Source: Candidatus Nealsoniibacteriota bacterium (GTDB lineage: Bacteria; Planctomycetota; Planctomycetia; Pirellulales; Thermoguttaceae). From it: 47,760 nucleotides of DNA. Positions 3,478-26,427 of the stretch are shown in pieces. Every line of letters begins with the position of its first letter. Position 1 is the stretch's first letter. Location: NCBI GenBank assembly GCA_013202865.1, contig JABMRB010000793.1, positions 1 through 47,760 of the forward strand. The letters are read 5' to 3'. A model generated the notes under the pieces. That model made no database searches. It saw nothing but the letters and a program-made list of their open reading frames with translations, and was not told the origin of the DNA. A program made the position numbers and the translations under genes.

Positions 3478-6400
3478 ATGCCAACTTGTCCATTCTGTCA
3501 AGCCGACCTTCAGGAGACTGACGTTCGGTCCGGGCGATGTCCCCGTTGCGGCAAGCAGTTGCCGGCCGAGCAGGCCGCACCGCCGCGGACTTCCGGGGAC
3601 GGTTCAGCGTCCGAAGAGGCGACGTCTGAATCTTCGCCGCCGAAAACCTCGGATACGGATGATCGACAGCGGATGGGCGAGACGCTCGACGGGGCGCCGT
3701 TACCGGAGCCTCCGCCCTCGGAGGAGGACGCCGACACGGCCGACGACTTCCCCGTCGACAAGACGTTGGACGGGGGAGACCCGTCCGAGACGCCGCCGGC
3801 AGAGGACCTGATCGGTGACACGGACGACCGCCAATACGCGGAGACGCTCGACAGCGACCGCGTGCCGCCGATGTCCCTTCCTTCCGGCGGAAACCCGCTC
3901 AGTTCGATCAAGGCCGAGGGCCGTGCCGCGGTAGCCGAATCAAAACAGGTGATCCCGTCGCGCGTTGTTTGCCAGCAGGACGGGCCAAGGCTGCCCGATG
4001 CCGACTACGAAGTGCTGGGAAAGATCGATAAGGGCGGGGTGGGGATCATCTACAGTGCCCGGCAGGCCTCGATCGGACGGCAAGTGGCACTGAAGATGCT
4101 CAAGCCGGAGCGGGCCGACGACCAGGGGCAGCGGGCGTCGTTGATCTCGGAAGCGGTCGTCACCGGCGACCTCGAACATCCCAACATTGTGCCGATCTAC
4201 GACTTGGGGATCAGAGAGGTTCGCCGACCAGAGGGCGAGGCCAAGGGTGAGCTGTTCTACTCGATGAAGCACGTCCAGGGTACGGAGTGGCAAAGCGTCA
4301 TCTCATCGCAAACCGAAGAGGAAGACCTCGACGCGCTGTTGAAGGTCTGCGACGCCGTTGCCTTCGCCCACAGCCGCAAGGTGATCCACCGCGACCTGAA
4401 ACCCCGAAACATCATGCTCGGCGATTTCGGCGAAGTGTTGGTGATGGATTGGGGGCTGGCAACGTCGCCGGACGACAAGGGCAACGGCGAGGCCGAAGGC
4501 ACGCCCGCCTACATGGCGCCGGAGATGGCACAAGGCCATACCGAGCGGATCGGGTTCCACAGCGACGTCTACCTGCTGGGGGCAATACTGTACGAGATCA
4601 TCACGGGTAATCCGCCTCACCCGGGTGAGACCGTCAAGCAAAGCGTGGCCGCAGCCGCGGAGAACGAAATCCGGCCGACCAACCGGTCCGGTGAGTTGCT
4701 CGATATCGCCCTGAAGGCCATGGCCACTGCGCCGGAAGACCGCCACGCCGACGTGGGCGAGTTCCAGGACGCCGTGCGGCAGTATCAGGCCCATTCCCAG
4801 AGCAGCCTGCTCGCCACCCGGGCGAAGGGGGATCTGGATGAAGCCGAGCGCGAAGGGGACTACAAGGTATTCGCACGGGCTCTGTTCGGGTTTCAGGAGG
4901 CGTTGGAGCTTTGGGACGGCAACGCCGCAGCCCGGTCCGGCGTGTCGGAAGCCGCGACGGCCTACGCGGGCTGTGCCTTGAACCGAGGCGACTTCGATCT
5001 GGGCATCTCGCTGCTGGACAACCTCGACGAGCAAGATCCGCAGCGGAACAAACTGCACCAGCGTCTCCAAACCGGCGCACGCGACCGCGACCGGCAGGAA
5101 AGTTGGCGCCGCAACGCCAAACGTATCGGGTTGGCGCTGGTGGCGACGATCTTCGTTGTGATCATCGGATCGTTCTTCTGGGTGCTGAGAGCGGAAGGGA
5201 TTGCGGTCAAGGAAAAGGAAGAAGCGGACCGGCAGAGAGGGATTGCTGTAGAGCAGAAAGGAATTGCCGTAGATCGGAAGAAGGAGGCAGATAGGCAGAA
5301 AGGAATTGCCATAGATCAGAAGGAGGAGGCAGACAGGCAGAAAGGAATTGCCGTAGAGCAGACGAAAGAGGCAAATAGACAGCGAACCATCGCCGAGAAG
5401 AACGAGGAGAAAGCACAATACAGTGCCTACGTGACCCGGATCGGCCTGGCGGAGGCGAGCATCGGGGAAAACGCGTTCGACCGAGCCGGCACGCTGTTGC
5501 AGCAGTGCCCCGAGGAGCAAAAGACGACTTGGGAATGGGGGCACTTGTGGCATCTCTGCACGCAGGCCCGTGTTAAGTTTAACGCTCAGCAACGGATCGA
5601 GGCCGTGGCGTTCTCGCCGGACGGAGGGCGTTTTGCCACCGGTGGCTGGGGCGGCACGGTTGATATCTGGGACACGGCAACTAGAAACAGGATTCGGACT
5701 CTTGAGAACGGCGTCGAGGACGTTTTCGCCGTAGCCTTCTCTCCCGACGGTAAACACCTTGCCGCCGGCACGAACGACAAACCGAACTACATCAAGATCT
5801 GGAACGTCGACTCTGGTGAACTCGTCCAAGAACTCGCAGGACACGGCGACGCTGTGTTGAGCGTCGTCTACTCAAAGGATGGACAGAAGCTGTTGACGAG
5901 TTCCTACGACGGCACGGCCAAGCTATGGGACCTGACGACCGGCGAGGTGCTGCAAACCTTCGAGGGCCACGACTGGTGGGTCTGGTCGGCGGCTTTCGAT
6001 CCGAACGAAAAAAGAGTCGTCACTGCCAGCCAGGACGGGACGGCGATCGTCTGGACGGTCAAGACGGACAAGACGGCCGAAACGGAAAAGGAAGACAAGG
6101 CGGATGAGACGGACAAGGCAAACAAGAAAGGTCCGGCGGCGTTCCGGGGGCATAAGGGACCGGTGTATGCTGCCGCCTTTTCACCCGACGGCCGGCACGT
6201 GGCCAGCGCGGGCTACGACAAGCGAGTGCTCCTTTGGGAACCCAAAGAAGCGACGCACTTCGACATCGAATTGGCGGTGAAGAACAAGGATAACCCGGCG
6301 CCCGTCTACGAGGTCTTGAGCGGTCACACGGCCCCCGTTCGCTCGCTGCAGTTCTTCCCCCGGTCCGGCGCGGAATCCTCTCCCGATTCCGACGAACAAC

Positions 6401-8619: not shown

Positions 8620-8810
8620 CACCGCGCCGGCGGGTAGATCCGATTTCTTCACCGGGATCGTTACCAAAGGATCTGCACGGCCAGATACGCCGATTGCGCG
8701 TCGTCGCGCCCCCTCTGGAACTTTTCCGCAATCATGACACAATAAGAGGAGCGGCTTGGATCACACGACGTGTCTCGGTGTGTGCCCGGTGGCAAAAGGA
8801 GAGCGAACGC

Positions 8811-10775
8811 ATGTGGCAGGTCGGTGATGAACCGGTTCCCGGATACCGGCTGGAATCGTTCCTCGGCGAGGGATCGAATGCCGTCGTGTGGCAGGCCTCG
8901 GCACCCGGCGGCATGGCGACCGCGTTGAAACTGATCAATCTTGGTGGAAAGCTGGGGCTGAAGGAGTTTCGCGGTATCCAGCGGGTCAAGGAGATCCGCG
9001 ATGCCCATCTGCTGCCGATCACTGCTTTCTGGCTGCTCGACGATCAGGGAAACGTGCTCGACGATCGCGCGATGCACTGCCTGGACAATTGGGTACACGG
9101 ACAAGAAGAAGTCACCGGCACCGTTCGGGTTCGGCCTCGGTGGCCCAGGACGCTGGTGGTCGCCATGCCCCTGGCCAACACGAACCTCTTCGACCTGTTG
9201 GAGCAATACAAGAACCGGGGCTGCGTGGGGATTCCAGTCGACGAGTTGCTCGACTACATGGAAGACGCCGCCAAGGGCATCGACTTCCTCAACAGCCCCC
9301 GCCACGACCTCGGCGGCGACCCGGTGGCCGTTCAGCACTGTGACGTGAAACCACAGAACATCATGCTGGTGGGCGACTCGGCCGTGGTTTGCGACTTCGG
9401 ACTCGCGCGGGTGGCCGGTGGAGACGAGAACCTGCGTTCGCTCACCGGCCCGGCCGGGACACCCGCCTACATCGCCCCGGAATGCGTCCACGGCGCGGAG
9501 CCCAGCCGTGCTACCGACCAGTACTCGCTGGCGATTACCTATTTCGAGCTCCGCACCGGCGTGCTGCCCTTTGCCGCCGAATCGCTGGAGGAGGTTTTCG
9601 GCGTCCACACCGGGGGCCACCTCCAACTCGATCCGTTGCCGCCCGCGGAGCGTGCGGTGATCCGCCGGGCAACTTCGCTACAGCCGGAAGACCGCTTTCC
9701 CACCGCGTTGAAAATGGTCCGCGCGCTCAGGCAATCGGTCGGGCCTCGGCTCGATTCCGCGTCTGCGGCTGTGGCTGACGAGGTTGCACACGTCCGCGAC
9801 ACCGACGAGGTGTTGGAGTCGGCGCTGGACTCGAAACACGACGCCCGCCTGTTGGTCGATCGGGGCACGGCCTCGTTGAAACAGGGTGACGTCGAGGCGG
9901 CTATCGACGACTTCGACAAGGCCATCGACATGGCCCCCGACATGGCGGAGGCCTACTACGGCCGTGCGATGGCCCACGGGGCCACGGCGGAATACCGCCG
10001 CAAACACGCCGCCGCTTTCGACGAGCAGGCCCATTCAAACTTTGCCCGGGGTGACTTCAGCCACGCGATCGCCGATTTCAGCGAGGCCATCCGCATCAAC
10101 CCCGAACTGGCCACCGTCAACCGTTGCCGCCTCCTTCGTAACCGGGCACTTGCTTATCGTATCCAGGGTGACTACGACAAGGCCATCGCCGACTGCAACG
10201 AGGTGATTCGGCTCCATCCCGACTTCGCCAGGGCCTACCACGACCGTGCCTTGGCACACCGGGCCAAACTGGACTACGACCACGCGATCGTCGATCACCT
10301 CGAGGCCGTCCGCCTGTCGTCGGGCAACGCGTCGTCGGGCAACGCTTCCGGGGACTACTGCTCCGAGTGTGCCGCCGCCTACCGCGAGCGCGGCGACGCC
10401 TACTACCGCAGACGCGACTACGATCGGGCACTAGCCGACTACAACGAAGCGATCCGTATCCGGCCGCGGTGGGGCATCGCCTACAATCAACGCGGTCGCA
10501 CCTACGCTGCCAAGGGCGAATACTCGGGAGCCATCGACGACTACGGTCGCGCGCTGCAACTCGACAAGAAGTTCGCGCACCTCTACCATTACAATCGCGG
10601 CAACGCCCATCACAAGAACGCCGACTACCACGAGGCCGTCGCCGATTTCACGCAAGCCCTCGAACAAAAACCCGATTACGGCAGAGCCTACCTCGGGCGC
10701 AGCCGGGCCTACAGAGAGCTGGGAATGGAAACCGAGGCGCAATCCGATGCAGCCAAGGCCGAGTCGCTGAAATAG
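8811..10775 (+). CDS. Ser/Thr protein kinase with C-terminal TPR repeats
   Basis: Starts MWQVGDEPVPGYRLESFLGEGSNAVVW after an AAAAGGAGAG ribosome-binding-like stretch; HCDVKPQNIML, CDFGLARV, GTPAYIAPE; repeated TPRs (YNEAIRIRPRWGIAYNQRGRTYAAKGEYSGAIDDYGRAL). Confidence 0.88.
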   Translation: MWQVGDEPVPGYRLESFLGEGSNAVVWQASAPGGMATALKLINLGGKLGLKEFRGIQRVKEIRDAHLLPITAFWLLDDQGNVLDDRAMHCLDNWVHGQEEVTGTVRVRPRWPRTLVVAMPLANTNLFDLLEQYKNRGCVGIPVDELLDYMEDAAKGIDFLNSPRHDLGGDPVAVQHCDVKPQNIMLVGDSAVVCDFGLARVAGGDENLRSLTGPAGTPAYIAPECVHGAEPSRATDQYSLAITYFELRTGVLPFAAESLEEVFGVHTGGHLQLDPLPPAERAVIRRATSLQPEDRFPTALKMVRALRQSVGPRLDSASAAVADEVAHVRDTDEVLESALDSKHDARLLVDRGTASLKQGDVEAAIDDFDKAIDMAPDMAEAYYGRAMAHGATAEYRRKHAAAFDEQAHSNFARGDFSHAIADFSEAIRINPELATVNRCRLLRNRALAYRIQGDYDKAIADCNEVIRLHPDFARAYHDRALAHRAKLDYDHAIVDHLEAVRLSSGNASSGNASGDYCSECAAAYRERGDAYYRRRDYDRALADYNEAIRIRPRWGIAYNQRGRTYAAKGEYSGAIDDYGRALQLDKKFAHLYHYNRGNAHHKNADYHEAVADFTQALEQKPDYGRAYLGRSRAYRELGMETEAQSDAAKAESLK

Positions 10776-11776: not shown

Positions 11777-12877
11777 ATGAAAGCTTCCGGATACCTCGGT
11801 TTGGCGGTGATCCTGTTCGGCATCGGCGGCACCTTCTCGGTTGCGAATGCTGCCGAGCCGCCAGGCGGTGTCACGACTGTCTGGAACATGCTGGGCATTC
11901 CCCAGGGGATCCAAGGCTTCCGAGATGCCACACTCAACCGCGGCGGGCGTTTTCCCGGACTAGAACGAAAGCCCCCGCTGAAAAGGATCGGCGATCCCGC
12001 CAACCTTGCGGAAGACCAACCCAAGGTCGTTCAGGACGCCGCGAAGATCAAGATCGAGGAAGATCTGGCCAAGCAGAAGATCAAGGCGATCAAGTATCTG
12101 GCCCAGATCGGCTGCGGATGCCACAAGGACGTGGACGCAGCGCTGCTCGACGCGTTGGATGATTGCACCGAGGAAGTTCGATACGAAGCAGCGATGGCCT
12201 TTTGCAACGCGGCCGGCGATCCGTGCGATACCTGTACGGGATCCGGCTGCTGCAACGCGAAAACGATGACGAAGTTGTACGACGTGGCCTACGGGCAGGA
12301 CGCCAGCGGCTGCTACAAGGAGCGTTCCACCCGAGTTCGCGCCGCCGCCCAGACCTCGCTGAGAGCCTGCCGCCGCGTTGTCCCCGTGGTCCCCGCCACC
12401 GTGCCCGAACTGCCCGGCGACGTGGAACTCCCTGGAGATATCGAAATGCCGCGCACGAGACCGGGGGACCTTCCTTCCGAACCGAGCGCTGTTCCCAACG
12501 GCGTCGAACCGTTGCGGCTGAAGGAACGGGGGCCGAGGGAGCCGACGCCTGCAGTTCCTCCCGCGGAAGATACTTCCGGCATCGTCAACCCGATCACGCT
12601 GACCGGCTTGGCGCAAGACGACGAACTCCGCTTCTCCGAGTCGCGACCGGCGTCTACCACCGAGCGACCCGCGGCGACCAGCGTTCGGCCCGCGGCTGCC
12701 AACGTTCGGTCCGTCCAGCGGGGTCACGACGGGCCCCCTTCGCCCGGTCGCCCCCGGAACTACGTCTACCGAGCCTCCGGCACGAGCTACGGCGAAACCG
12801 GGGCTTCCAAGGGGGGAGACTACGGTCGCAATCCGATGTGGTGGGAAAACACGTCGAAATTCAGGATCCACCGGTAA
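11777..12877 (+). CDS. Secreted HEAT-like repeat protein with Cys-rich insert and Pro/Arg-rich tail
   Basis: ATG at 11777 gives signal peptide MKASGYLGLAVILFGIGGTFSVANA; KYLAQIGCGCHKDVDAALLDALDDCTEEVRYEAAMAFCNAAG is HEAT-like; CDTCTGSGCCN. Confidence 0.65.
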   Translation: MKASGYLGLAVILFGIGGTFSVANAAEPPGGVTTVWNMLGIPQGIQGFRDATLNRGGRFPGLERKPPLKRIGDPANLAEDQPKVVQDAAKIKIEEDLAKQKIKAIKYLAQIGCGCHKDVDAALLDALDDCTEEVRYEAAMAFCNAAGDPCDTCTGSGCCNAKTMTKLYDVAYGQDASGCYKERSTRVRAAAQTSLRACRRVVPVVPATVPELPGDVELPGDIEMPRTRPGDLPSEPSAVPNGVEPLRLKERGPREPTPAVPPAEDTSGIVNPITLTGLAQDDELRFSESRPASTTERPAATSVRPAAANVRSVQRGHDGPPSPGRPRNYVYRASGTSYGETGASKGGDYGRNPMWWENTSKFRIHR

Positions 12878-12952: not shown

Positions 12953-15900
12953 TCACCGGTGACGGACGTCGATTTGCAGGGAATCCGAATCGCCGAACTT
13001 CAGGGCATCCTTCTTGATTGCCGCTTCGGTCGTGAAGCGGATTTCATAGCCCCTCACGTCACTCTCTTTGGCATCTTTGTAGGTGAACGAGTGGCAAGCC
13101 GTGCCGACCTTGGGATAGAAGCGTCGTTCGACGACGTCAGGCCGGGGCCGCATCTCCACCTTGACCCAGTGCAACGGATTCTCGGGCCGGTGCATTTCCT
13201 TGATCTCGATCCGGTATCCGGTGGTTGCCTCTAGAGGAGAGGTTTGCAGCTTGAACTCCACGTCGTCGATCCGAAACGGGGGAAGCTCGTTGGCGGGGTG
13301 GATCAACTCGCCGACGGCCTTCGTTTTGGTCGGCGAAGTCTCTCGTGGCTTGAACCACACTCGGACCTCCGCCCTTGTGGCGTTCGTCGGCCAATTGATG
13401 AGGTCCTCGCACATCAACCGTGGGACCGGCTCACCCCGCTTGTAGTTCGAGTCGTAGAACGTGCGAATCTCCCCTACGTCAACATTGGATTCACCACCCG
13501 ACTTCGGCTGGATTTCTATCCATACTTCCTTTGGGCGAGGGCTGAATTGCTCCGCTGCAGCGTTGCGGATCGAGACGTCGACAATGCCATCTATCGCTCG
13601 AGTGGGATCGTGTGCTTGGACGACGAACTGCCCGACGGTGCGGCTCTCCCCGCCATCGTCCGGGGCGTACGGCTCGAATACCAGCCTGGCTCCGTCTTGG
13701 GTGAGCCGAAGCCTCAGCCCCTCCCCACCCGTCACGCTCACCTCTTTGGAAACCGTTGTCTTCTTCCGCTTGACGCGTACGTCGTACTGCCTCTCGTGCT
13801 GGCCGTACGGGATCAGGACCGCCGTGTTGATGGTGCCCTCCTGGATGAACGAACCGCTGCGCTGCCGAACCTCGTAATTCCATATCCCGAGCGACTCTTC
13901 CAACTCTTCCTGCAGAATTGCCGTGGCCTTGGCAGGGCGGAAGCTGCAGCGATCGTGTATCTTCAGAGTCGTCTCAAGGTGTGAGGGCGGTCGTTCTTCT
14001 CCGGGTTTGTCTAGAGCGAACCCCACGACGTCCAAGCGATTGTCCCCCATGCGGGAATCATCTACGGCCTTGATGACGTCCTTCAGGCTCTGCTGCACCG
14101 CAACGTCCACGTTGTTGATCTTGATGGTATCGGGGTCCGTGGTATGGCCGTTCTGATTATTCAAGCCGTCGGTAATTACAATCACGTGTCTGGCTTCCCC
14201 CGCAACGCGGTTTTCCTTAATCGCCATGATGATCGAGAGGTAGAGGGGAGTGATTCCGTTCGGTTTCAGCGTGGCGAGTTTGGCAATGACGTCGGCCTTC
14301 ATTTTCTGCGTCAACGGCTGTGGCGTCAGGATCCATTGGACGTCGCTGCTCATCGGGGGGGACTTGTGTTGTGGGACGAGTTTACCGTCTTTCTTAAAGA
14401 TGTCCTTGTTCCAGCCGTTGCGGTGGCCGTAGACGATCAGTCCGACGCGCGGTGGCTTCTCGGAAGCCGCCAACCGCCGGAGCATCTTACCCAGCGCGTT
14501 TCTGGCCCCGGTCATCTTTATCCCGAGTTCGGTCCCGTCCACGGAATCCTGCATGCTGCCGGACGAGTCGAAGACGAAGACAACCGAAGCGTCTCGTTCT
14601 CCGGCGGAGACGCGAACCGTGGAGTCCTGATCCTCCAGCTTGTACTCGACGTGCAAGGCCTCCGCGGCGAATCGGCACGGTTGTTCGCCCACGTGGCCGC
14701 GGTAGTAGACGCGGGCGGTCATGGCAGCGGAACTGTTGGAATCCCCCTCGCTGATGAGCGACTTGAAGTAATCGCTGTTGGCGATTTCATATTCGCCCGG
14801 CCGACGCTCCTTGGAGTCGCCGGGAATCGCAATCGGAATGCGCAGACCGGCGCTGCCTACTATTCTGATGGGTGGCCCGGACTTCTTTTCATGCAGATAG
14901 TACGCCGCTTTGCCGCCGGGCAAGCCATTGCCCAGCAAAGCGGCCCCAGCGTCCAGCTCGACGGCCGTTGCGTGGGGAAGCGTCTTGCCCTGGTCATCGG
15001 CCAATAGCTGCTGGAGTTCCGTCGGTGTCAGCAGTCTTCTCGCCACGGGCGACAGCCGTTCCAGGCGGTCCCTGGCGGCCTTCGAGCTGATCCTTTTCGG
15101 AGACGAATCACCGCCAGCCGGGCGGACAATCCGGTCGACAAGCGTCTCGGCAGACGTCAGATAGCTTTCCGCCGCGATTTCAAAGAAGGGGCGTTTGCCG
15201 CCGGGCTCTGCTCCCCAGAAGTCTTCCATGGCCCGCCGGGCGTGCCAGAGCATCAGGTGGTGGTGATCGAGATTGCGGAGTTGGCCGGTGGGGTCCGCCA
15301 CGCCGGCGGTCCAGAGATCGTGGTTCAGCAAGGCCGCCGACACCCGCACCACCTGGTCCGCCCGGCTGCAACTTATCCGGGTCTTCGTAGCGGAGTATTC
15401 GGCCTGGTCCGTTGCTTCCGTGCCTTCGATCAGCATGCCTCGCGTCTCCGCCAGCAACTCGTCGGTTTCGGTGTACACGCACTTCGGCGCCGAGGCGCCG
15501 TCCGGAAGGTCGTCGGGTTTCAGTTCGGCGTTGTTTCCGTACAGGCGCTGGCGGACGCGCCAACCCTGCACGGCAAACCGCTCGAGCGGTTGATTCCGCA
15601 CGGCCGGCTTCAAAGACGAGTTGAAGCTCTCCACCGATTTGAGAATTGTCAAGGCGGGATGCTCGGACCAGGCAACCAGTCGACTCAGGTACGGCGAGAG
15701 GGCCTGTTCCGGGTCGTTGTCTTCGTCCGTCGGGCCACCGGTGGAAGCACCCTCACCTTCGTCGTTCTCGACCGTCAGGAATATCCCGAGGAGTTTACGG
15801 CGGCGCTCACCGGTGACCAACGGCACGGCCAACACGCTGGCAATGCGTCGGCATCTTCCCTTGTGGGCACCGAGATCCTCCGCGCATACCCTGCATTCTT

Positions 15901-18196
15901 CGGCGTACACGTCATCGAGCACCCTCAGCCGTTCCTCTACGATCGCACGGGCAGCATCGGCGGCAGCCGGCACTCCGTCGTCGGCCGACCGTTCCAACAC
16001 CGCCGCCAGTTGGCAATTCTCGCGGATCAACTCTTCCAACTGATCGCGCAAGGCGGCTTCCTCGGTCTTGGAGCCTCTCTCGCGAAGCCGCCCGCAGAGC
16101 CATTGCGCCAGGTACGGGGCCCTGGCCCAGACTTTGTCCCGCGTTTGGAACGCGTCGGCGAGTTTTCTAGCGTTCTCGACCGCGGCATGATAGGTGTCGT
16201 GCGGGGGCGTGGACGGTTCTTCCCGCTTCTCGCCGAGCGCCGCCTCCCACTGCTGTGCTGCGTAGCCAAGGCTCTCACTGTCGCCCACGAAGAGATGGTC
16301 CTCGGCCGTTCGGCGTTTCTTGTCGGCCGCTTCCACCGCGGATTGGATCCAATAGTGAGTTCGTTCGTCTTTCGGCGCGGCGGCTTCTTCCGCCTTATTG
16401 CGGAGTTGGAGGGCCCGTTGAACGTGCTCCGCGTTCTGCTGCCACGTGTCCGGGTCGAGATAGGCGTTGAGCATCCGCAGAAACCGCAACTCGATGAGGT
16501 CGGGCTGCTTGCCCGAGTTGGTCTTGTCGACGAACTGCAGTGCTTCGTCCAGTCGGTTCCGTTCGAGCGGCAGCGCCGATTCGTCCGCCTCGCGGCCGTC
16601 CGCGTATTCTCCCCGTGCCCAGTTCCAGGCCGCCTCTGTGGCATCGAGATAGTCCGGTGGCGAAGCATCCTTGGAGTTGGTCTCCGGCGGCGGTGCTCCG
16701 GAGCCGTTTCCATTCGTGTCGCCGCCGTTGGCCGGCTCGGCGGGCTCCGGCGGGTCAGGCTCGCCCGCGGCGGTTTCTACGGGCGTTCCCTCGTCGGCAC
16801 CGGATTCGGCGGGCCGATCTCCCGTGCCGTTTTCGGCCCCGGCCGCCGGGTCTTCCCTTGAGTTCAGCCACGCGTCGAGTTGCTCGCGGGCGACCGCAAC
16901 GTCGTCGGCGTGGGCAACGCGGAGCCGGCGAGCCATAGGCAGACTATGGGCCGCCACGTCGCTGTGGGCCACCGCTTGCTCCAGTTCTCCGGCCAACTTG
17001 TTCAGGTCCAATCCCCTATCACCAGGATTGCCCGCTAGCGTCCACTGCTCCAACTCCAGCAAACCGTGCTGGAACTTCTCGAACTTCAGCGGGTCAACTC
17101 GATACGCATAAGCGTTGCGAAGCTGTTTGTGTCTGTTCCACAACTGGCCCACTTGAGCCCAGGAGATGTTCGTCGGTTCCCACTTGGCGGGTCCAAGCTT
17201 CTGGGTAAAGACGAGCGGGTAGTCGGCATCGGCGGGCAGGAGCATGGGCACCTGGACGTCGTCGCGATTCTTGACCGTCCACTGCTTGACCTCCTTCTGC
17301 AGGTAGGCGATCAGTTCCTGCAAAGAAACTTCTTCATTCTCACGGCCGTCCTCGGCACCATCGGCTTCGCCCCGAAGGCCGCGCCAGAGGAAGTGTCCGA
17401 ACACGGAGCCGGAGAATTGTGGGGCCGCCCAGCCGATCTGGCCGGGGCCGCAGGAGTTCAGCACCGTGAGGTTGCGATCTTCGACGATGGCCTTTTTGAC
17501 GACGTCCTGCAGACGTTCCGCAAAGCCGTTGTAGAGCACTCCCATGTTCCAGTTGGCGTCGATGCGGTTGGCGTCGAGAATCAGGAGTGTCTTGACATTC
17601 TTGCGTTCTTTGAGAGCGTTGAGGAGTTCGCTTACCGGCAACCATTTCTCCGGTACCGGCAGCCATTTGTCCGGCGCCTCTTCCAGAGCCCCGGGAAGTA
17701 GCAGGCACGGGCGGTTTTGCCCGTCGACGATTCCGTGCATGCTGAGATAGATAATCACGAGGTCGCCGCTGGGCCCGCCTAGGTTCAGCTCTTCTGTTCT
17801 GAGCTTCTTCAGTAAGTCCTCCTTGGAAACCTGGTCGAGCTTGGTATGCTTGAAGGCGTTCCTGTCCTTCTTGATTTTGGCGATCCGACTCACGTCTTCG
17901 GTTGCCCAGGCGTTGGGTGGGATCGGCCAAACGTAGTTGGTGGCCGCGAAGGTCACCAGCGGCGTCTGTTGCGGCGTGCGCGTAATGTACCACCAATACC
18001 CTCCGAGCAGCGCGACCAGCACGACGACGTAGGCAGCGAGTTGGAGATTGCGCCGGCGCACGCGACTCTTGTGCGGATCGGCCTTTTTTTCACCTACCCA
18101 GCCAGGGGTCTTCTTGCCCGCGACAGGCTTACGGCGCGAACCGTCTTGCGACTGGCCGCGCCATCCGGGTTTATCAGAGGGAGGCTGGGAAGGCAT
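12953..18196 (-). CDS. Single-TM protein with degenerate caspase-like (C14) domain and C-terminal von Willebrand factor A domain
   Basis: TM LQLAAYVVVLVALLGGYWWYI after basic N-terminus; IIYLSMHG (His motif) but LLILDANRID where DACHSG is expected; VWA VVFVFDSSGSMQD (DxSxS), VIVITDGLNN. Start MPSQPPSDK chosen. Confidence 0.8.
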   Translation of the reverse strand: MPSQPPSDKPGWRGQSQDGSRRKPVAGKKTPGWVGEKKADPHKSRVRRRNLQLAAYVVVLVALLGGYWWYITRTPQQTPLVTFAATNYVWPIPPNAWATEDVSRIAKIKKDRNAFKHTKLDQVSKEDLLKKLRTEELNLGGPSGDLVIIYLSMHGIVDGQNRPCLLLPGALEEAPDKWLPVPEKWLPVSELLNALKERKNVKTLLILDANRIDANWNMGVLYNGFAERLQDVVKKAIVEDRNLTVLNSCGPGQIGWAAPQFSGSVFGHFLWRGLRGEADGAEDGRENEEVSLQELIAYLQKEVKQWTVKNRDDVQVPMLLPADADYPLVFTQKLGPAKWEPTNISWAQVGQLWNRHKQLRNAYAYRVDPLKFEKFQHGLLELEQWTLAGNPGDRGLDLNKLAGELEQAVAHSDVAAHSLPMARRLRVAHADDVAVAREQLDAWLNSREDPAAGAENGTGDRPAESGADEGTPVETAAGEPDPPEPAEPANGGDTNGNGSGAPPPETNSKDASPPDYLDATEAAWNWARGEYADGREADESALPLERNRLDEALQFVDKTNSGKQPDLIELRFLRMLNAYLDPDTWQQNAEHVQRALQLRNKAEEAAAPKDERTHYWIQSAVEAADKKRRTAEDHLFVGDSESLGYAAQQWEAALGEKREEPSTPPHDTYHAAVENARKLADAFQTRDKVWARAPYLAQWLCGRLRERGSKTEEAALRDQLEELIRENCQLAAVLERSADDGVPAAADAARAIVEERLRVLDDVYAEECRVCAEDLGAHKGRCRRIASVLAVPLVTGERRRKLLGIFLTVENDEGEGASTGGPTDEDNDPEQALSPYLSRLVAWSEHPALTILKSVESFNSSLKPAVRNQPLERFAVQGWRVRQRLYGNNAELKPDDLPDGASAPKCVYTETDELLAETRGMLIEGTEATDQAEYSATKTRISCSRADQVVRVSAALLNHDLWTAGVADPTGQLRNLDHHHLMLWHARRAMEDFWGAEPGGKRPFFEIAAESYLTSAETLVDRIVRPAGGDSSPKRISSKAARDRLERLSPVARRLLTPTELQQLLADDQGKTLPHATAVELDAGAALLGNGLPGGKAAYYLHEKKSGPPIRIVGSAGLRIPIAIPGDSKERRPGEYEIANSDYFKSLISEGDSNSSAAMTARVYYRGHVGEQPCRFAAEALHVEYKLEDQDSTVRVSAGERDASVVFVFDSSGSMQDSVDGTELGIKMTGARNALGKMLRRLAASEKPPRVGLIVYGHRNGWNKDIFKKDGKLVPQHKSPPMSSDVQWILTPQPLTQKMKADVIAKLATLKPNGITPLYLSIIMAIKENRVAGEARHVIVITDGLNNQNGHTTDPDTIKINNVDVAVQQSLKDVIKAVDDSRMGDNRLDVVGFALDKPGEERPPSHLETTLKIHDRCSFRPAKATAILQEELEESLGIWNYEVRQRSGSFIQEGTINTAVLIPYGQHERQYDVRVKRKKTTVSKEVSVTGGEGLRLRLTQDGARLVFEPYAPDDGGESRTVGQFVVQAHDPTRAIDGIVDVSIRNAAAEQFSPRPKEVWIEIQPKSGGESNVDVGEIRTFYDSNYKRGEPVPRLMCEDLINWPTNATRAEVRVWFKPRETSPTKTKAVGELIHPANELPPFRIDDVEFKLQTSPLEATTGYRIEIKEMHRPENPLHWVKVEMRPRPDVVERRFYPKVGTACHSFTYKDAKESDVRGYEIRFTTEAAIKKDALKFGDSDSLQIDVRHR

Positions 18197-18243
18197 TGAT
18201 GATCTCCATGATTCGGATTGAGGCACGCACGCCGTCGGCCGAC

Positions 18244-21200
18244 CTATTCCTTCGGCAACCGGATTCTGGCCGGCGTGGTCTTCCCCGTTGCAGCGAGGTC
18301 GACCTCTAGTTGGTTCTTTTCGCCGTAACCGACGCGGGATTGATCTGCCTCATTCGGCTTTGGCTCGATGGTAACACCTTTTGCTTCCATCACAGGGGAT
18401 TTGTTACCGGCGGAATCCGTGGCCTGAAACAGAATGCTGTAGTTTCCCGGCGGCAACAACTTGCCTTTGATCTTGGTGGGCAGTGAAATCAGGCACCAGC
18501 CTCTTGCGTCGGGCTGAGGCGGGGACAAGAGTCTCTCTCCCTTCTCGAGTTCACCCGATCCGTCCTGATCGATACCGACTTCCATCTTGATCTTTTCCAC
18601 GCCGCTGAGGTCCTCGCATTGCAGGCCCAACAGCAGCGGCTCACCCTGGAGGATCCTGCCGTCGGCGACCGTGCCGGTGCAAACGGGTGGCTTGCTGTCC
18701 AGGAAGATCTCGACGGAGTGCCTTGGCGGATCGAGGTCCTCCCGCGTACCGGACGAGGGTAATCTCAAGGCGACCTCCAAACGAACCTTGCCGTCGTCCA
18801 GCCTGTCGTCTTGCAGGTCCATCCGGAAATCCTGCACGCTGGCCCGGACCTTCACCATACCGGTCGGTGTAAGCTCCGGCCGAGCGACGGTCACCTGCCG
18901 ATTGCCGAAAAAAGGCTCGATTTTGACGGGCTCAACACCGCGGCTCTGACTGACAAATCGCACCTGAATATAGCCGGGCGGATCCGCTCCGTGCGGGACC
19001 GTGCCACCCCAATCGGCGAGCTGTCCGCGAGGATCGTCCACCTGGAAAGCCAGCGGGATTGGCCCGTCCGGTCGATACGCCTTGCCTTCCTCGGGCGAGG
19101 TGATGCGTACGCCGGGGCGGTTGATCTTGGAAACCTGCCCGTGTTGTTCCCGCTCGATCCGGAATGCAAAGACCCGCGGGTAGCCATCGACGTGCAATCG
19201 CAGGAAGAGTTCCCTTGGCGCAAGCGGATCGACCGTCATGGGCCACTCCACCGGTTCGTCGGGGGAGGTAATAAGCATCTTCGACCGGACGGTCTTGAAT
19301 CCGACGTCGGGTCCCGTATCCCAGGTCACGTTGATCGGCTTCTTCGAGGAGATCTCGGGTAACGACGGATTGGATCGTCCACGAGCGTCGGTCTTGCGTA
19401 CGCCGACGTGAACGTTGACCGCGCGCTGCCGGGGGTCGTAACTCGGCAACGATTCGAGCTGGACGTATTGCCGCGGATCGACCGGCACGAAGTCCAGCCA
19501 ATAGTACCATGCGGGCGCGGCCGAATCCGTGTCGTTCTTGTCGTGAATCACGCACGCCCACACGCACAGTCCCGAATCCGGCTGGGGATCTACCTCCGTT
19601 TCGGCGCGTGCATCCGGCGGCGCGGCGGGCTTTGGCTCGGTGAACGGAACCTGTTCGGGACCGCTCTTCGGCGGCAGCGTCATGGACTCCGCCGCGGTGA
19701 GCTCCTCCACGCCGAGTTGCCATTTTCCCGCCTTCTTGACGAGCCGGTCGGGCGAAGGCAATTCACTCCGTCGGTGGGTCGACAGTCGCAGCAATTGGAC
19801 CGTCACGTCCTTCTTGTCTTCGGAGAGATTCTGCAGATCGAAACGGAATTCGGTAGCTCGACCGGGAAACGGGCGGAGACTGATCGGATCGGTCCCGGTC
19901 ATGAGCGTGCCGTGTTCTCTGCCCACCCGATACACCTGCAATTCGACCGTATCCGGCGCAGGCAACTTGAACGTAACCTTACAGGGAGGAGCCGTCTTGT
20001 TGCCGGCGCGGACCGACACGTTCACCTCGGGCGGCCTCGTCGCTCGGTTGTCCGCCAAGGCGACGACAGAATACTTGCGGATCGTTTCGTTCTTCTCCAA
20101 CGTAATCTCTTCAGGTTGACCCGGCTCGATTTTCGTTTTTCCGTTGGCCGTCAACACTTGCAGCAGGTCCGGGTAGTAGTCCAGCGTAATCTCGGCCTTT
20201 TGGCCGGAGAGGTCCGTCGCAACAATCTCGATCTGGAACTCTCCCTCGTTCTTGCCCGGACCCAGTTGGGGCGTTTTCGAGCTGCCGGTGACCGTCAACG
20301 CCGGTTGGCCGGGCGGCGGCGGAAACCGGACGTCGCGGACAATGGATCCGACGGTTGCTGCCTCGTGGATCTTTTTCGCGTCTCGCGGGTCGACCAGCCG
20401 GAGCAATCGTTCTGCGCGGCGGAAATCTCCGTCGGCCCGGGCCGCGTGAATCTCCTCAGGCAAGCCTTGGTAGAACGTGCCGAGATCCTTACCGAATGTA
20501 CGGCATGCTTCCCAGAAGCCCTCTTTCTTGGAGCCCGGCTGCTTCAAACCGATTTTCTCGTTCGAGCCGGCCAGCATGACAAGCTGCTTTTCCAAATTCG
20601 CCTGTTTGACGAGGAGTCCACGCTGCCAGTCGGCGAACTTCTTGGCCTCTTCGTTCAACTCGTTCACGTCATCGTCCGTCAACGCGCGAGTTTTCGGAGG
20701 GGTCGATTTCAGGGCGTCCAAGGCATCGAGCAACATGATGCGTTGGTCGCGGGAGAGCAATGGGAAACCCAGCAAGGCCTCAATGCGGCAGGCCCTGCCC
20801 GGCCGCTTAACTCGGAATTCGCTGTTCTTTTCCGGCTTTTCGGCCATTTCCTCGACTTCGCGGTCGAGGCGGTCTCGGAGGCGTTTGGCCGGGCCGCGCA
20901 GTTGCAGCGCGCCGTCGACCAACCCTGTCAGAATACTCTCCATCTGGCTGCGCGACTCCCCGTCGGCCACCGCCGTTTCCAATCGCTCCAAGTCCTTGGT
21001 GAACTGACTCAACTTGTCAAGCAGTCCGGAAACGTCGTCATACGCGTCGTCGTGCGGATGAGTCTCGGCGCTGGTGGAAGCCTGCGAAAGGCGTGCGTAC
21101 CACCGGAGGTAGTAGGGCGCCGCAAAGACGAGATCGTTCTTCAGTTGGACCAGCTCCCGGACCTTGGCTGTGGTCTCCTTCTCCCGGGGTATTCCCTTGA

Positions 21201-22446
21201 AGCCCACGTGACATTTGCTCTGCTCCTGCCAGAACTTCTCGTCGCGATTCGCCATGACAACCTGGAGGCCGGTGTCTAGTTCGGCTCTGTTGATCCCTTT
21301 GCCGCCCCGATAGCGCGACTCGTAATGCACCAGCTTTTCGAGATACTCGCGCCAAAGATGAGGAGCGTAGTCGACCGGCAACCAGGAATCGTCTTGGCGT
21401 GTCATTCTCTCGGGAAGTTCCCATGCCTGTTTCGCGAATTCTCTCACCGACGGCGGGGTCTCGTCCAGCGCGGCGGGCTTCTCTTGCCCGTTGCCGGCGC
21501 CTCCGGGCGTCTCTTTCGACGACTTCTCGGCAGCGGCACACACCAGGACATCGTCCGGCGGATTCGTGACGGTTCCCTCGCCGCCTTGCAGCAGCCAGGG
21601 TGTCTGGACTTGCCGGCCGCCGACCTCGCGCTCTACCCAACTGCCGACCCCGTCGCGAACGTATCGATAAAGCTCCGCCAGGCCGACGTTGCCGTCCGAG
21701 TCGTCTGCACGATTGGCGGCCCCCTTGAGTCCCTCGGTGACGTAGTAGCCGAAGATCGATCGGCCTGCTGGAAATGAGGCATGAGAGGCCTGCAACGGGC
21801 GGTTCGACGTCAGCACCCACAATCTGCGGTCGTCGAGTTCCTTCAGTTTCTTCTCCAATATCCGGGGAAACTCGTTGGCCAGCATCCCCAGGCGCGGGTC
21901 GGAGGCAATATGGCCGACATCCAGGATCAGCAGCTTTCGTTTCGCCCGACAGCCCCGAAGCCGGTCGAGCAATTCGCCAAGCTCGTATCGCTTCTCTTTC
22001 GACTGCCCGTCGTAGTCGACGCACAGCAAATAGGCGGTGCCGTCCTGAGAAACCCCGTGAGCCGACAGGTAGCAGATCAGAACGTCTCTGCGGCCGGTGT
22101 CGATTCCGTCCAATTCACCGTCGAGGCCCGCCACGTCCCGCAACACGTGCCGTTGTTTCTTCGGCTCAGTCAACGACACGCCTTTCAGTTGTTCAAGGTC
22201 CTCCTCGCCGAATGGAATGGTCGGAACCGTCAGCCGGTCGTATTCGACGACCGACAGGCAGACCAGATGCGTCTTGGACGGCGAATACCACAACCAGATC
22301 AGCCAGACGAGCAATCCCATCAGGACCAGTGTAATGGTGCCGAACAGGGTCCGATTCACCCATCTTGTCGTTGTCGACGACTGGGCCACCTCCTTGCCTC
22401 GCCATCCGCCTTCGGGTGACGGAGAAACGTGATCGCTTTGTGTCAT
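18244..22446 (-). CDS. Single-TM protein with degenerate caspase-like (C14) domain and long C-terminal Ig/bacterial-surface-like region
   Basis: TM TLFGTITLVLMGLLVWLIWLW; LICYLSAHG His motif, LLILDVGHIASDP replacing the Cys motif; C-terminus with YSILFQATDSAGNKSPV Ig-like motif. Start MTQSDHV chosen. Confidence 0.75.
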   Translation of the reverse strand: MTQSDHVSPSPEGGWRGKEVAQSSTTTRWVNRTLFGTITLVLMGLLVWLIWLWYSPSKTHLVCLSVVEYDRLTVPTIPFGEEDLEQLKGVSLTEPKKQRHVLRDVAGLDGELDGIDTGRRDVLICYLSAHGVSQDGTAYLLCVDYDGQSKEKRYELGELLDRLRGCRAKRKLLILDVGHIASDPRLGMLANEFPRILEKKLKELDDRRLWVLTSNRPLQASHASFPAGRSIFGYYVTEGLKGAANRADDSDGNVGLAELYRYVRDGVGSWVEREVGGRQVQTPWLLQGGEGTVTNPPDDVLVCAAAEKSSKETPGGAGNGQEKPAALDETPPSVREFAKQAWELPERMTRQDDSWLPVDYAPHLWREYLEKLVHYESRYRGGKGINRAELDTGLQVVMANRDEKFWQEQSKCHVGFKGIPREKETTAKVRELVQLKNDLVFAAPYYLRWYARLSQASTSAETHPHDDAYDDVSGLLDKLSQFTKDLERLETAVADGESRSQMESILTGLVDGALQLRGPAKRLRDRLDREVEEMAEKPEKNSEFRVKRPGRACRIEALLGFPLLSRDQRIMLLDALDALKSTPPKTRALTDDDVNELNEEAKKFADWQRGLLVKQANLEKQLVMLAGSNEKIGLKQPGSKKEGFWEACRTFGKDLGTFYQGLPEEIHAARADGDFRRAERLLRLVDPRDAKKIHEAATVGSIVRDVRFPPPPGQPALTVTGSSKTPQLGPGKNEGEFQIEIVATDLSGQKAEITLDYYPDLLQVLTANGKTKIEPGQPEEITLEKNETIRKYSVVALADNRATRPPEVNVSVRAGNKTAPPCKVTFKLPAPDTVELQVYRVGREHGTLMTGTDPISLRPFPGRATEFRFDLQNLSEDKKDVTVQLLRLSTHRRSELPSPDRLVKKAGKWQLGVEELTAAESMTLPPKSGPEQVPFTEPKPAAPPDARAETEVDPQPDSGLCVWACVIHDKNDTDSAAPAWYYWLDFVPVDPRQYVQLESLPSYDPRQRAVNVHVGVRKTDARGRSNPSLPEISSKKPINVTWDTGPDVGFKTVRSKMLITSPDEPVEWPMTVDPLAPRELFLRLHVDGYPRVFAFRIEREQHGQVSKINRPGVRITSPEEGKAYRPDGPIPLAFQVDDPRGQLADWGGTVPHGADPPGYIQVRFVSQSRGVEPVKIEPFFGNRQVTVARPELTPTGMVKVRASVQDFRMDLQDDRLDDGKVRLEVALRLPSSGTREDLDPPRHSVEIFLDSKPPVCTGTVADGRILQGEPLLLGLQCEDLSGVEKIKMEVGIDQDGSGELEKGERLLSPPQPDARGWCLISLPTKIKGKLLPPGNYSILFQATDSAGNKSPVMEAKGVTIEPKPNEADQSRVGYGEKNQLEVDLAATGKTTPARIRLPKE

Positions 22447-22652
22447 GGCCACCGATCCTCGCAACAAGCGTCCACAGTACCGATCCCTACACCACCAAAC
22501 GGATTCTACGACAACAGTCGGCAAGATGGTAGCCCCAAGCGTCTGGCGGGCAGCGCCCGGGGCACCTGCCGGCTCCCGTTCTTTTGGCAAGTTGGCGAAG
22601 TGGCGCTGGCTTTCCCCGGCCGAAAAGGGGGAGATTTCCGATCGGCACGTCC

Positions 22653-22681
22653 TTGACCCGGGATAGCCGATCGTGTATACA
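22653..22681 (+). promoter_or_regulatory. Candidate sigma70-type promoter upstream of tssK
   Basis: TTGACC (22653-22658), 17-nt spacer, TATACA (22676-22681), 34 nt before the tssK ATG; matched by eye only. Confidence 0.4.
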
Positions 22682-22715
22682 GGATTGCTGTGTTGATCGG
22701 GATGGGAGGGACGAA

Positions 22716-24134
22716 ATGCGTAATCTACCGGTACACTGGTCGGAAGGCTTGTTCTTGCGGCCCCACCATTTCCAGGCCGCCGACCGGTTCTGGACCGAGT
22801 CGCTGCAAACCTCGGAGCATTGGGACCACCAGTACAACTACGGTGTTCGTTCGCTGCAGATCAGCGAGGAGGCGATCGCCAACTACCAGGTCCAGGTGAA
22901 CCTCTGCCAAGGGCGAATGAAGGATGGCACGTTGGTCTCGCTGGAGCCGGGCCAGGAACCGGACCGGGTCGATCTGAACGAAGCCTTTGCGACCGAATCG
23001 ACCGTACGCGTGTATCTCGCCGTGCCGAAGCTCAAGATGGGCAGCCCCAACGTGGGAAGCGACGTCGCCGGAAAGCAACGCTATCTGGGTGGCACGGAAT
23101 CGCTGCAAGATGAGAGCGCCGGTGGAAACGATCAGGACGTCGGGCTTCGCAATCTCAACGTGCGGGTGCTGCTGTCGACGCAGGATCTGGCCGGATACGA
23201 GGTCCTGCCGATCGCCCAAATTCAACGGGCCGGCGACCGGGAGGCGACGCCGCGAGTGGACGGCAGCTACTTTCCGCCGATGTTGGCGATCGATGCCTGG
23301 CCGCCGTTTTTGGGAAGAGACGTCGTCCGCGCAGTTTACGACGTCATCGGCATGAAGATCGACTTGCTCAGCCAGCAAGTGGTCAACCGCGGCATCGGGT
23401 TTGCCGCCCAGATGCCCGGCGATTTGGATCGTCTGATGATGTTGATGCTGTTGAATAACGCCTACTCGGTATTGCGGGTGTTGACGTTCGCCTCCGGCGT
23501 GCATCCGCTGGTGGCGTACACCGAGTTGTGCCGCATTGTCGGGCAGTTGGCGATCTTCTCCCCCGAGCGGCGGGCTCCGGAAGTCCCCCTGTACGATCAT
23601 GACGACTTGGCGGGGATCTTCCACAAGGTGAAGGACCTGATTCAGGCGCTGATGGCGGAGATCGGCGACTACGAGTATGAGCAGCGGTTCTTCGAGGGCC
23701 GGGGCCGGGGAATGGCCGTGGCCATCGAGTCGGGATGGTTCAACACCGACTGGCAATGGTTCGTGGGTGTTTACCGGGGAAGCCTCAACAAGGACGAGTG
23801 TCTCGCCCTGCTCTCACCCGGCAGGCTCAATTGGAAGCTCGGCAGTGCCCGTCAGGTCGAAGCCTTGTTCACTCACGGAGCCCCGGGACTTCAACTGACG
23901 CCACTGGCCCAGGCCCCCCGCGCGCTGCCGCCGGCCGGCGACGTGATGTACTTCGAGGTGACCCGGGGAAACGCCGCCTGGAACGACGTGCTGGAAACCG
24001 AAACACTGGCGATGCGACTGAACGAGACGGTGATCGCCAACCGGGACGATCTACAAGGACAACAGGAACTGGTTGTCTCCCTGGAAGGCCGGCAGTCGCG
24101 GCTTCGTTTTGCCCTGTTCGCGGTACCGGAGTAG
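22716..24134 (+). CDS. tssK: T6SS baseplate protein TssK
   Basis: MRNLPVHWSEGLFLRPHHFQAADRFWTE...; family hallmark VHWSEGLFLRPHHFQ; SLNKDECLALLSPGRLNWKLGS. Confidence 0.95.
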   Translation: MRNLPVHWSEGLFLRPHHFQAADRFWTESLQTSEHWDHQYNYGVRSLQISEEAIANYQVQVNLCQGRMKDGTLVSLEPGQEPDRVDLNEAFATESTVRVYLAVPKLKMGSPNVGSDVAGKQRYLGGTESLQDESAGGNDQDVGLRNLNVRVLLSTQDLAGYEVLPIAQIQRAGDREATPRVDGSYFPPMLAIDAWPPFLGRDVVRAVYDVIGMKIDLLSQQVVNRGIGFAAQMPGDLDRLMMLMLLNNAYSVLRVLTFASGVHPLVAYTELCRIVGQLAIFSPERRAPEVPLYDHDDLAGIFHKVKDLIQALMAEIGDYEYEQRFFEGRGRGMAVAIESGWFNTDWQWFVGVYRGSLNKDECLALLSPGRLNWKLGSARQVEALFTHGAPGLQLTPLAQAPRALPPAGDVMYFEVTRGNAAWNDVLETETLAMRLNETVIANRDDLQGQQELVVSLEGRQSRLRFALFAVPE

Positions 24135-24136: not shown

Positions 24137-24802
24137 ATGACGCCGAAATTCGCCAAGGCGGTTGACCCGGTCTTCATGCGGGTGCTTGGTCTGCTGGAGC
24201 GGATCGAACGGGATCGTAACCTCTCGCCGGAAGAGGAACGGGTGACGATTCGTAGCGATCTGGACGCGGCGGAGCGACGCTTGGGCCAAAGTGAAGAATG
24301 GAAGTTGGCCAAGTACGGCCTGGTGTCGTGGATCGACGAGGTGCTCATTGAGGCCCCGTGGGAGAAAGGCCGTAACTGGTGGAAGGAGAATTCGCTGGAG
24401 TGGGTATATTTCGGGACGAATTCGCGTTTCGAGAGGTTCTTCGAGCAGGCCGAGGAGGCAAACAAGCAGCCGCAGAAGGACGCCCTGGAGGTCTTCTACG
24501 TCTGTCTCGTGCTCGGCTTCCGCGGGCTCTACCGCGACCCCGAACAGGCCCCCGCGTTGGCCGGTCCGCTGGGGATCCCCACAAGAATCGGGGACTGGGC
24601 CAGCCAGAAGGCGAAGGCCATCCACGGAGGTGACCGGCCCAATATCTCCGAGGGCCACGAGCCGATCGACGGCGCCGAGCCGCTGGAGGGGCCCGTCATG
24701 TTGATTTGGTCCGTGCTCTTGGCGCTGGTGCTGGCTGCCGTGACGGGATTTGTCGCGTGGATGTTCTGCTTCCCCTCCTCGTTCGGGGGACCGCAAACAT
24801 GA
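24137..24802 (+). CDS. tssL: T6SS membrane protein TssL (DotU/IcmH family)
   Basis: AKYGLVSWIDEVLIEAPW..., EVFYVCLVLGFRGLYRD; C-terminal TM MLIWSVLLALVLAAVTGFVAWMFCF; next gene start overlaps (ATGA). Confidence 0.92.
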   Translation: MTPKFAKAVDPVFMRVLGLLERIERDRNLSPEEERVTIRSDLDAAERRLGQSEEWKLAKYGLVSWIDEVLIEAPWEKGRNWWKENSLEWVYFGTNSRFERFFEQAEEANKQPQKDALEVFYVCLVLGFRGLYRDPEQAPALAGPLGIPTRIGDWASQKAKAIHGGDRPNISEGHEPIDGAEPLEGPVMLIWSVLLALVLAAVTGFVAWMFCFPSSFGGPQT

Positions 24803-26427
24803 TGAGCTTCTTTCGCCGAATCGTGGATACGATCACCTATCCGCTCAGAGCGCTGCTCTATTCGCCGAGCAAGCTGTTCGCCCCGTTGCGGTGGTTGGCG
24901 AGGCTCTCGCTGCCGACAAAAGTGTCCATCCTGGCGTTCATCTTTCTCGTGGTCCTTGCGGTGATCTGGCTGATAGTGAGCTACGCGACCGCGACGGCTG
25001 GGGCCCCAGCCAGCGTTTGGGCCAAGGATTGGTGGCAACTGACAATCCTCGTGGTGCTGATCCCGATCTTCCTCTACCACACCCTGAAATTCTGGCTGCA
25101 AGGTGAAATCTCGCCCTATCCGGACATCGATCACGCCTGGAAGGCCGGGCTGGCCGAGCTTCAACAGCAGGGTCTCGACCTGGCGAGAACGCCCCTGTTT
25201 CTGATCCTCGGTTCCGCCGGTGAAAACCAGGAGAGGGCCCTGTTCCACGCCTCGCAAGTTAATTTCAACATGGAGGCGGTCCCGCACGGTCCCGCCCCGT
25301 TGCATTGGTACGGCAGCGCCGACGGCGTTTATCTGGTATTCACGGGTGCCGGGTGCCTGAGCAAGCTGGCTGGTGTCGCCAGGCAGGTCGCCGACAAGGA
25401 GCGCGTTGGGCCCTCGCCTAGTCCTCCGCGGGCTGCGGCGCCGGACCAGCCGGTGCGCCAGACCATAGTCGCCAAGAACGGCGTGCCCGACGGCGCACCC
25501 GACACACCTCGACCGGCGGCGGACGAGAGACCCGCGCCCGCGTTTGATATCCGCGGAACCATGCAGGTTTCAACCGATGCAGTCGACATTTTGCCCGCCC
25601 CGGGAGCAGCATCGGAGAAGCGGGTCATCAAGCTCGACAAGGACGACACCATCGAGCAAGCCCGGCGGTTGCAGTACGTCTGCGGGCTCATCCGCCGACA
25701 GCGACAACCGCTGTGTCCGATCAACGGAATCCTGGCGCTATTGCCGTTCGGTCTGATCCAAAGAAGCCCCGGGGAAAAGAGCATACTGCAGGGCGCGGTC
25801 GAGAAGGATCTTTCGACCGTTTCGCGGGTGTTGATGCTCCGTTGTCCGGTAACCGCCCTGGTGGTCGGCATGGAAGAGGAGAGCGGTTTTCAGGAACTGG
25901 TGCGGCGTCTGGGACGCGAGCGTGCCGTGAGCCAGCGTTTCGGCAAAGGCTATTCGCTGTCGAACCCCCCCTTGCCCGACCGGCTCGATGCGCTCTGTAC
26001 GCACGCCTGCGGCGCGTTCGAAGACTGGGTCTATGCCATGTTTCGCGAGCGAGACGCGCTGACCCGAACGGGCAACACTAAGCTCTACTCCCTGTTGGTG
26101 AAGATCCGACGCGACGTGCGGGGGCGCTTGGCGGATATCCTGGCGTACGGTTTTGGGACGAAGGACGAGCCGGATCAACGATCTGACGGGCTGCTGTTCA
26201 GCGGCTGCTATTTCGCCGGCACCGGCGACGAGGAAGATCGCCAGGCGTTCGTCAAGAGTGTTTTCGAGAAATTGCCGGAGCAGCAGGAGGAGGTGCAGTG
26301 GACCAGTTCGGCAATTCGTCAGAATGAGAAGATGTTGAGTATCACTCAGGGTATCCTCGTATTCTGTACTGCGATGATCGTGTTGCTGGTGGCTTTCGGC
26401 GTCTACAAGGTGGTCTTCCAGGTGTAG
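24799..26427 (+). CDS. tssM: Short TssM/IcmF-like protein lacking the periplasmic domain
   Basis: Two N-terminal TMs, central cytosolic domain with LFLILGSAGENQERAL at the usual Walker A position, C-terminal TM ILVFCTAMIVLLVAFGVYKVVF followed by stop; located between tssL and downstream genes. Confidence 0.8.
   Translation: MMSFFRRIVDTITYPLRALLYSPSKLFAPLRWLARLSLPTKVSILAFIFLVVLAVIWLIVSYATATAGAPASVWAKDWWQLTILVVLIPIFLYHTLKFWLQGEISPYPDIDHAWKAGLAELQQQGLDLARTPLFLILGSAGENQERALFHASQVNFNMEAVPHGPAPLHWYGSADGVYLVFTGAGCLSKLAGVARQVADKERVGPSPSPPRAAAPDQPVRQTIVAKNGVPDGAPDTPRPAADERPAPAFDIRGTMQVSTDAVDILPAPGAASEKRVIKLDKDDTIEQARRLQYVCGLIRRQRQPLCPINGILALLPFGLIQRSPGEKSILQGAVEKDLSTVSRVLMLRCPVTALVVGMEEESGFQELVRRLGRERAVSQRFGKGYSLSNPPLPDRLDALCTHACGAFEDWVYAMFRERDALTRTGNTKLYSLLVKIRRDVRGRLADILAYGFGTKDEPDQRSDGLLFSGCYFAGTGDEEDRQAFVKSVFEKLPEQQEEVQWTSSAIRQNEKMLSITQGILVFCTAMIVLLVAFGVYKVVFQV

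Follow-up and report, generated by a model that had tools for sequence, protein, structure and literature searches.

Paired giant membrane pseudo-caspases as candidate parts of a type VI secretion membrane complex with truncated TssM in Planctomycetia

Results

Two giant membrane proteins beside a type VI secretion cluster

The stretch analysed here, called the window, is a whole contig of 47,760 bases (C659; JABMRB010000793.1) from a planctomycete assembly of 9.1 Mb in 1456 contigs (81% complete). It carries a type VI secretion system (T6SS) and, next to it, genes for two giant membrane proteins with caspase-like domains, which we named P1 and P2 and which differ in the presence (P1) or absence (P2) of a VWA domain. 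Genes tssA, B, C, E, F, G, H, K and L and those for Hcp and VgrG were all found in the window, identifying it as a T6SS locus. The T6SS cluster lies on the plus strand, and P2 and P1 are encoded on the minus strand. P2 (18244..22446) is divergent from tssK (22584..24134), an arrangement kept in four relatives of the same family (G008, G009, G010 and G013) and in several other genomes of the class. Then come tssL (DotU; 24137..24802), with a C-terminal transmembrane (TM) segment and no peptidoglycan-binding domain seen, and a short tssM (24799..26427), whose product ends about 6 residues past its third TM segment (TM3) and is without a periplasmic domain. A preliminary description of this DNA had placed both giants head-to-head with tssK-tssL-tssM; this holds for P2, whereas P1 stands in tandem behind it.

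P1 (12953..18226) has 1757 amino acids from a GTG codon, the ATG at 18196 being the likelier start. Hydropathy revealed a single TM segment (17990..18046) after a basic N-tail, followed by the pseudo-caspase domain (17201..17965) and, further on, a VWA domain with approximate bounds 13907..14590. The VWA assignment rests on a Pfam match under the cut-off (E 0.0017) and on the alignment of orthologues; its MIDAS motif, DxSxS...T...D, is intact and invariant across six aligned P1 orthologues. P2, with 1400 amino acids from an ATG codon, likewise shows one TM segment by hydropathy (22288..22344), a pseudo-caspase domain (21541..22272), and then a helical region and a string of beta-sandwiches; its body was modelled as a helical region followed by a beta-sandwich row (pLDDT 72). 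A fold search with the P2 body returned complement and alpha-2-macroglobulin beta-sandwich arrays at a TM-score of about 0.12 and was uninformative. P1 and P2 share homology over their N-terminal regions, TM segment included (28% identity, E 5e-18). Sequence turnover is high among the giants, with about 30% identity within one family.

The N-tails of the giants carry a net positive charge in 93 of 97 class sequences. They are also enriched in a short W-[RKQ]-x motif, present in 58 of 99 sequences against 21 +/- 4 after shuffling and occurring at least twice in 22 of them against 1.9; in the window the tails with this recurrent motif span about 18050-18196 (P1) and about 22345-22446 (P2). The motif is a candidate docking site.

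The N-terminal domains are caspase homologues without an intact catalytic dyad

The P1 domain was modelled with AlphaFold2 (pLDDT 83, pTM 0.88) and the model was searched with Foldseek; the top 50 PDB matches were all caspase-family structures, including caspases, CED-3 and MALT1 (best E 7e-10). Profile searches were less direct. P2 matched PF00656 (Peptidase_C14) at E 0.09 and 12.9 bits, under the gathering cut-off of 21.4, and a P2 orthologue at E 0.02; P1 gave no match to this profile, and Pfam searches with full-length P1 and P2 gave no caspase match. The homology is therefore shown through other routes. Caspases from the same family with HG and DxCHAG/DACR motifs (PF00656, 1e-18 to 1e-25) align to both domains, the NCBIfam profile caspase_w_EACC1 matches P2 (9.5e-10) and P1 (1.4e-4), both below the curated cut-off, and the modelled fold agrees. 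The predicted fold of both N-terminal domains is of the C14 caspase type, for P1 from the model and for P2 from homology. The architecture given in the preliminary description, a basic N-terminus, one TM segment and a C14 caspase-like core, thus agrees with the N-tails, the hydropathy, the homology and, for P1, the structure search.

The His-Cys dyad of active C14 peptidases is broken in both proteins. P1 keeps its His motif (YLSMHG) and has Asn at the Cys position, encoded by AAC (17567-17569, minus strand) within ILDANRID; P2 keeps YLSAHG and has Gly, encoded by GGC (21913-21915, minus strand) within ILDVGHIA. Both codons, as well as the retained His and the lost Cys motif, had been described correctly before. 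Homologues in the same family have Cys at the nucleophile position in 0 of 16 cases, with motifs D-[A/C]-[N/T]-R in the P1 type and D-[A/V]-[G/N/P/S] in the P2 type; all 8 P1-type sequences retain the His, which is replaced by Leu or Arg in 3 of 8 intact P2-type sequences. Across the class, with 101 homologues from 60 fetched loci, Cys occupies its column in only 3 sequences and His its own in 53, and His retention differs between the types (38/48 VWA-type vs 28/67 VWA-less). A class-wide check of the domain columns for an alternative conserved Cys found none, the best column having Cys in 18/47 VWA-type sequences. Judged from these alignments, the loss of the nucleophile is ancestral and no local accident.

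Two of the three Cys-keeping exceptions, G123 and G152, belong to one genus and are VWA-type homologues with both His and Cys (GHGF...DSCRT/DTCRT; L145:3855-8783 and L148:4071-9149); their domains might be active. In some P2-type orthologues an EF-hand-like loop was seen late in the pseudo-caspase domain (weak Pfam EF-hand match, E 0.006; for example L057:11994-12749), a possible Ca2+ site.

The giants occur with the T6SS and as a pair of two types

A first contig scan with P1 gave no match; a contig scan with A3 gave 16 loci, mostly in metagenome-assembled genomes of Pirellulales/Pirellulaceae/Thermoguttaceae (class Planctomycetia). For the class as a whole, TssF was found in 155 of 398 sampled Planctomycetia genomes, and a P2 profile was run against 55 T6SS-positive and 51 T6SS-negative genomes. 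It matched all 55 positives, and giant frames were seen in 53, one of which (G188) was counted through a truncated pseudo-caspase frame next to its tssM. Among the negatives, 14/51 gave weak matches to the caspase part, and the only long frames were those of G139 (1576 amino acids) and G127 (1227 amino acids), neither of which matches the giant body. Set conservatively at 52/55 vs 2/51, the association has a Fisher p of 5e-24.

The same was observed within the window's own family. Among its 119 genomes, orthologues of P1 and P2 occur in the same nine, all TssF-positive (9/15 TssF-positive vs 0/104; Fisher p 5e-10). Of the six other TssF-positive genomes, one holds a fragment and five, all of genus g39, a divergent T6SS-like cluster (L084, G094:C3, in the genome that was read). 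The g39 system was considered as a counterexample, as it is without giants; no tssK, tssL or tssM was seen in the 40 kb read around its tssF (G094), which makes it another type of system.

The association extends to gene order. At 41 of 60 loci, and in 37 of 49 genomes, at least one core T6SS gene is located 2.5 kb or less from a giant gene; in 20 genomes the neighbours include tssK, tssL or tssM. The two giants flank tssM in G138, G216, G288 and G313, and in G122 tssM directly precedes the pair. The preliminary description had proposed a link between the two giants and the T6SS, and the presence of homologues in 53/55 positives against at most two doubtful frames in the 51 negatives, together with the neighbouring core genes, strongly supports it.

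Pairing is strict with respect to type. Among 40 class loci with two giants, 34 have one VWA and one VWA-less protein, six have no VWA detected, and none has two VWA proteins. In a tree of the caspase domains, 43 of 47 VWA-type sequences fall in one clade together with six others, which is consistent with an old duplication having given rise to the two types.

TssM is truncated and TssJ is not found where the giants are present

TssM was found in 53/55 T6SS-positive Planctomycetia genomes, and every frame was 470-822 amino acids long. The protein ends right after TM3 in 30 of 30 cases inspected, with 0-22 residues beyond it in 29 and 52 in one. The periplasmic domain of TssM (IcmF_C) scored above the cut-off in none of the 55 T6SS-positive Planctomycetia genomes, and TssJ was likewise found in 0/55; the E. 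coli control was positive for both. The class thus showed neither component that marks the canonical TssJLM complex. In other classes of the phylum the picture is reversed: giant pseudo-caspases were absent from all 45 T6SS-positive genomes, and of 20 loci that were read, 14 had a TssM, which was full length every time (1153-1683 amino acids). Presence of the pair therefore tracks absence of the TssM periplasmic domain. The preliminary description had suggested that the giants could supply missing envelope functions, and this complementarity strengthens the suggestion.

An exported HEAT-repeat protein and other genes of the locus

Convergent with P1 lies a plus-strand gene (11777..12877) for an exported protein whose sequence shows a signal peptide and a weak resemblance to HEAT repeats. 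Homologues were found at 22/60 loci, often between both giants, and in 15 of the 22 a lipobox-like xxGC ends the signal region, predicting a lipoprotein; the window protein has a signal peptide but no lipobox. The outer-membrane lipoproteins of the two known T6SS designs are TssJ and TssR (PMC10781749), and we regard the HEAT protein as a candidate TssJ-like part. At L201:13485-15383 a homologue, predicted to be a lipoprotein, is fused to SurA-like/PPIase domains.

The rest of the plus-strand cluster comprises tssA (start 27906), tssB (start 29366), two adjacent full copies of tssC (VipB; 29893-31410 and 31344-32987), ImpE/TagJ (start 33014), and tssE, tssF, tssG and the genes for ClpV, Hcp and VgrG. 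The paired tssC is conserved in G008, G009, G010, G013 and G031, and two sheath large subunits per cluster were also seen in several loci of other classes. Just upstream of Hcp/VgrG are a CHAP-domain protein (40103-40891, plus strand) and a protein encoded beside it (40907-42019), both candidate T6SS cargo, and VgrG is adjoined by a protein in which an FHA domain is fused to the effector adaptor domain DUF4123 (44976-46160). On the far side of P1, a Ser/Thr kinase-TPR protein (8574..10775, plus strand) is preceded by a Ser/Thr kinase with one TM segment and 17 WD40 repeats (3466-8619). The kinase-TPR gene adjoins P1 in same-family relatives, a possible regulatory link; in these relatives P1 is grouped with hcp-vgrG-FHA/DUF4123 and the kinase-TPR gene, and both this module and that of P2 with tssK are united in the window.

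Discussion

It is likely, on the evidence of sequence and distribution, that P1 and P2 form a co-evolved bitopic inner-membrane heteropair which, with truncated TssM, TssL and probably the HEAT lipoprotein, makes up an alternative T6SS membrane complex in Planctomycetia. P1 and P2 would probably rebuild the lost periplasmic anchor of the T6SS. Physical partnership with TssL and TssM is something we infer; co-occurrence, adjacency and complementarity are what was tested.

Several observations weigh against this interpretation. The T6SS-positive genomes G208 and G219 give weak matches only, and 12 of 49 genomes show no core T6SS gene near the fetched pair. For the P2 body, the overall confidence of the model is low (pTM 0.46) and the only matches are generic beta-sandwich arrays. 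Comparison of the P1 and P2 bodies by hhalign with the periplasmic part of the 14 full-length TssM proteins gave a probability below 1%; as far as hhalign reaches, this also rules out a split or fused TssM remnant within the giants, and the proposed replacement accordingly rests on distribution and not on descent. Finally, the correlated traits share the phylogeny of the class, and the contrast between classes may come close to a single evolutionary event, for which reason the presence and absence of the giants within the class serves as the independent support.

The main rival assigns P1, and perhaps also P2, to a threonine-phosphorylation pathway as a sensor of the envelope and not to the channel; the periplasmic ectodomain of P1 would detect damage and signal to the kinase-TPR and FHA-DUF4123 proteins in the manner of a split PpkA. 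PpkA of the T6SS consists of an N-terminal kinase, a TM segment and a periplasmic domain (PMC12607579), and the resemblance extends to a membrane protein with a periplasmic ectodomain and, in the window's family, a kinase and an FHA protein nearby. P1 lies beside the kinase-TPR gene in G008, G009 and G013 and near an FHA/DUF4123 gene in these and in G025 and G026, the window holds both genes, and the MIDAS of the P1 VWA domain is complete. P1 itself, however, is without a kinase; the kinase gene is separate, and its adjacency to P1 is not conserved class-wide, kinase-TPR homologues standing beside the pair at only 2/60 class loci while the pair is near-universal. A regulator would also leave unexplained both the loss of TssJ and the TssM periplasmic domain and the existence of P2, which is without VWA, and we consider a sensor role unlikely.

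The giants could instead stand outside the T6SS core as linked accessory proteins that act in immunity, adhesion or wall binding or are cargo, as their high turnover, the distance of some copies from the core cluster and the frequency of Ig and VWA modules in adhesins would allow; near-universality, strict two-type pairing and conserved adjacency to tssK and tssM are unlike variable cargo or immunity genes, which makes this explanation quite improbable. We give very little credence to the proposal that the domains are still proteases acting through other residues, such as a Cys shifted by one position towards the N-terminus (DCN/DCT), or through a metal site. Cys does precede the canonical position directly in 17/48 VWA-type sequences, and two sequences retain the whole dyad, but the earlier Cys is absent from the window and from every P2-type sequence, about half of which have lost the His too.

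If the heteropair is indeed a part of the membrane complex, its N-tails would be cytoplasmic (N-in) and touch TssL, TssM or TssK, perhaps through the W-[RKQ] motifs, with TssL and TssM as the cytoplasmic hub. Just outside the inner membrane the pseudo-caspase domains would serve as a dimerising or ligand-binding scaffold and not as proteases. Since caspase domains commonly dimerise, the pseudo-caspase domains may hold P1 and P2 together. The periplasm would be crossed by the long bodies, helical and beta-sandwich, which would form a cage for passage of the tube, and the HEAT lipoprotein would anchor the complex at the outer membrane. We lean, with some reserve, towards regarding this as a third trans-envelope design of the T6SS, consisting of TssL, a cytoplasmic and TM-only TssM, an outer-membrane lipoprotein with HEAT repeats and an obligate giant heteropair in which one member has the VWA domain and the other the beta-sandwiches; a protease fold would thereby have taken on a structural role in a secretion machine.

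Such a design shares with the canonical TssJ-TssL-TssM complex (T6SS-i) the TssL and the cytoplasmic/TM TssM, encoded beside TssK here, and an exported protein, a predicted lipoprotein in most relatives, which could act as TssJ; it differs in that the TssM periplasmic domain and TssJ were not found class-wide and two non-homologous giants take their place in the distribution. In Bacteroidota, TssN-Q-O-P-R (T6SS-iii) replaces TssJLM by non-homologous single-TM periplasmic proteins and a lipoprotein (PMC10781749), which sets a precedent for a non-homologous complex of the same layout. That complex has no TssL or TssM left, whereas the proposed planctomycete one retains both, TssM in truncated form, and its new parts have pseudo-caspase domains. 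TagP of the Pseudomonas putida K1-T6SS derives from a TssM whose periplasmic C-terminus has been swapped, and has a peptidoglycan-binding domain (PMC10433429); there the exchange resides in a single fused protein, here in separate giants. Caspase-homologous domains without the His-Cys dyad are also known from cyanobacterial pseudo-orthocaspases, in which Tyr-Ser replaces the dyad and for which the abstract mentions no tie to a T6SS (PMC6426788); the planctomycete domains have Asn, Thr, Gly or Ala and belong to giant, T6SS-bound membrane proteins. T6SS genes have been noted in Rhodopirellula baltica (PMC2660368, PMC5394234), so the system is known in Planctomycetes; our literature search, with many subscription papers outside it, found no account of T6SS pseudo-caspases or of a planctomycete T6SS envelope complex.

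PF06744, the TssM C-terminal domain, serves as a TssM marker (PMC9113992), and T6SS typing by TssJ and this domain would miss the systems described here. If the proposed complex is true, the periplasmic cage of TssM/TssJ would have been replaced independently a second time, Bacteroidota being the other case, and a concrete three-gene set would be testable for T6SS assembly. It would also mean that catalytic loss in a caspase fold became fixed across a bacterial class along with a new role.

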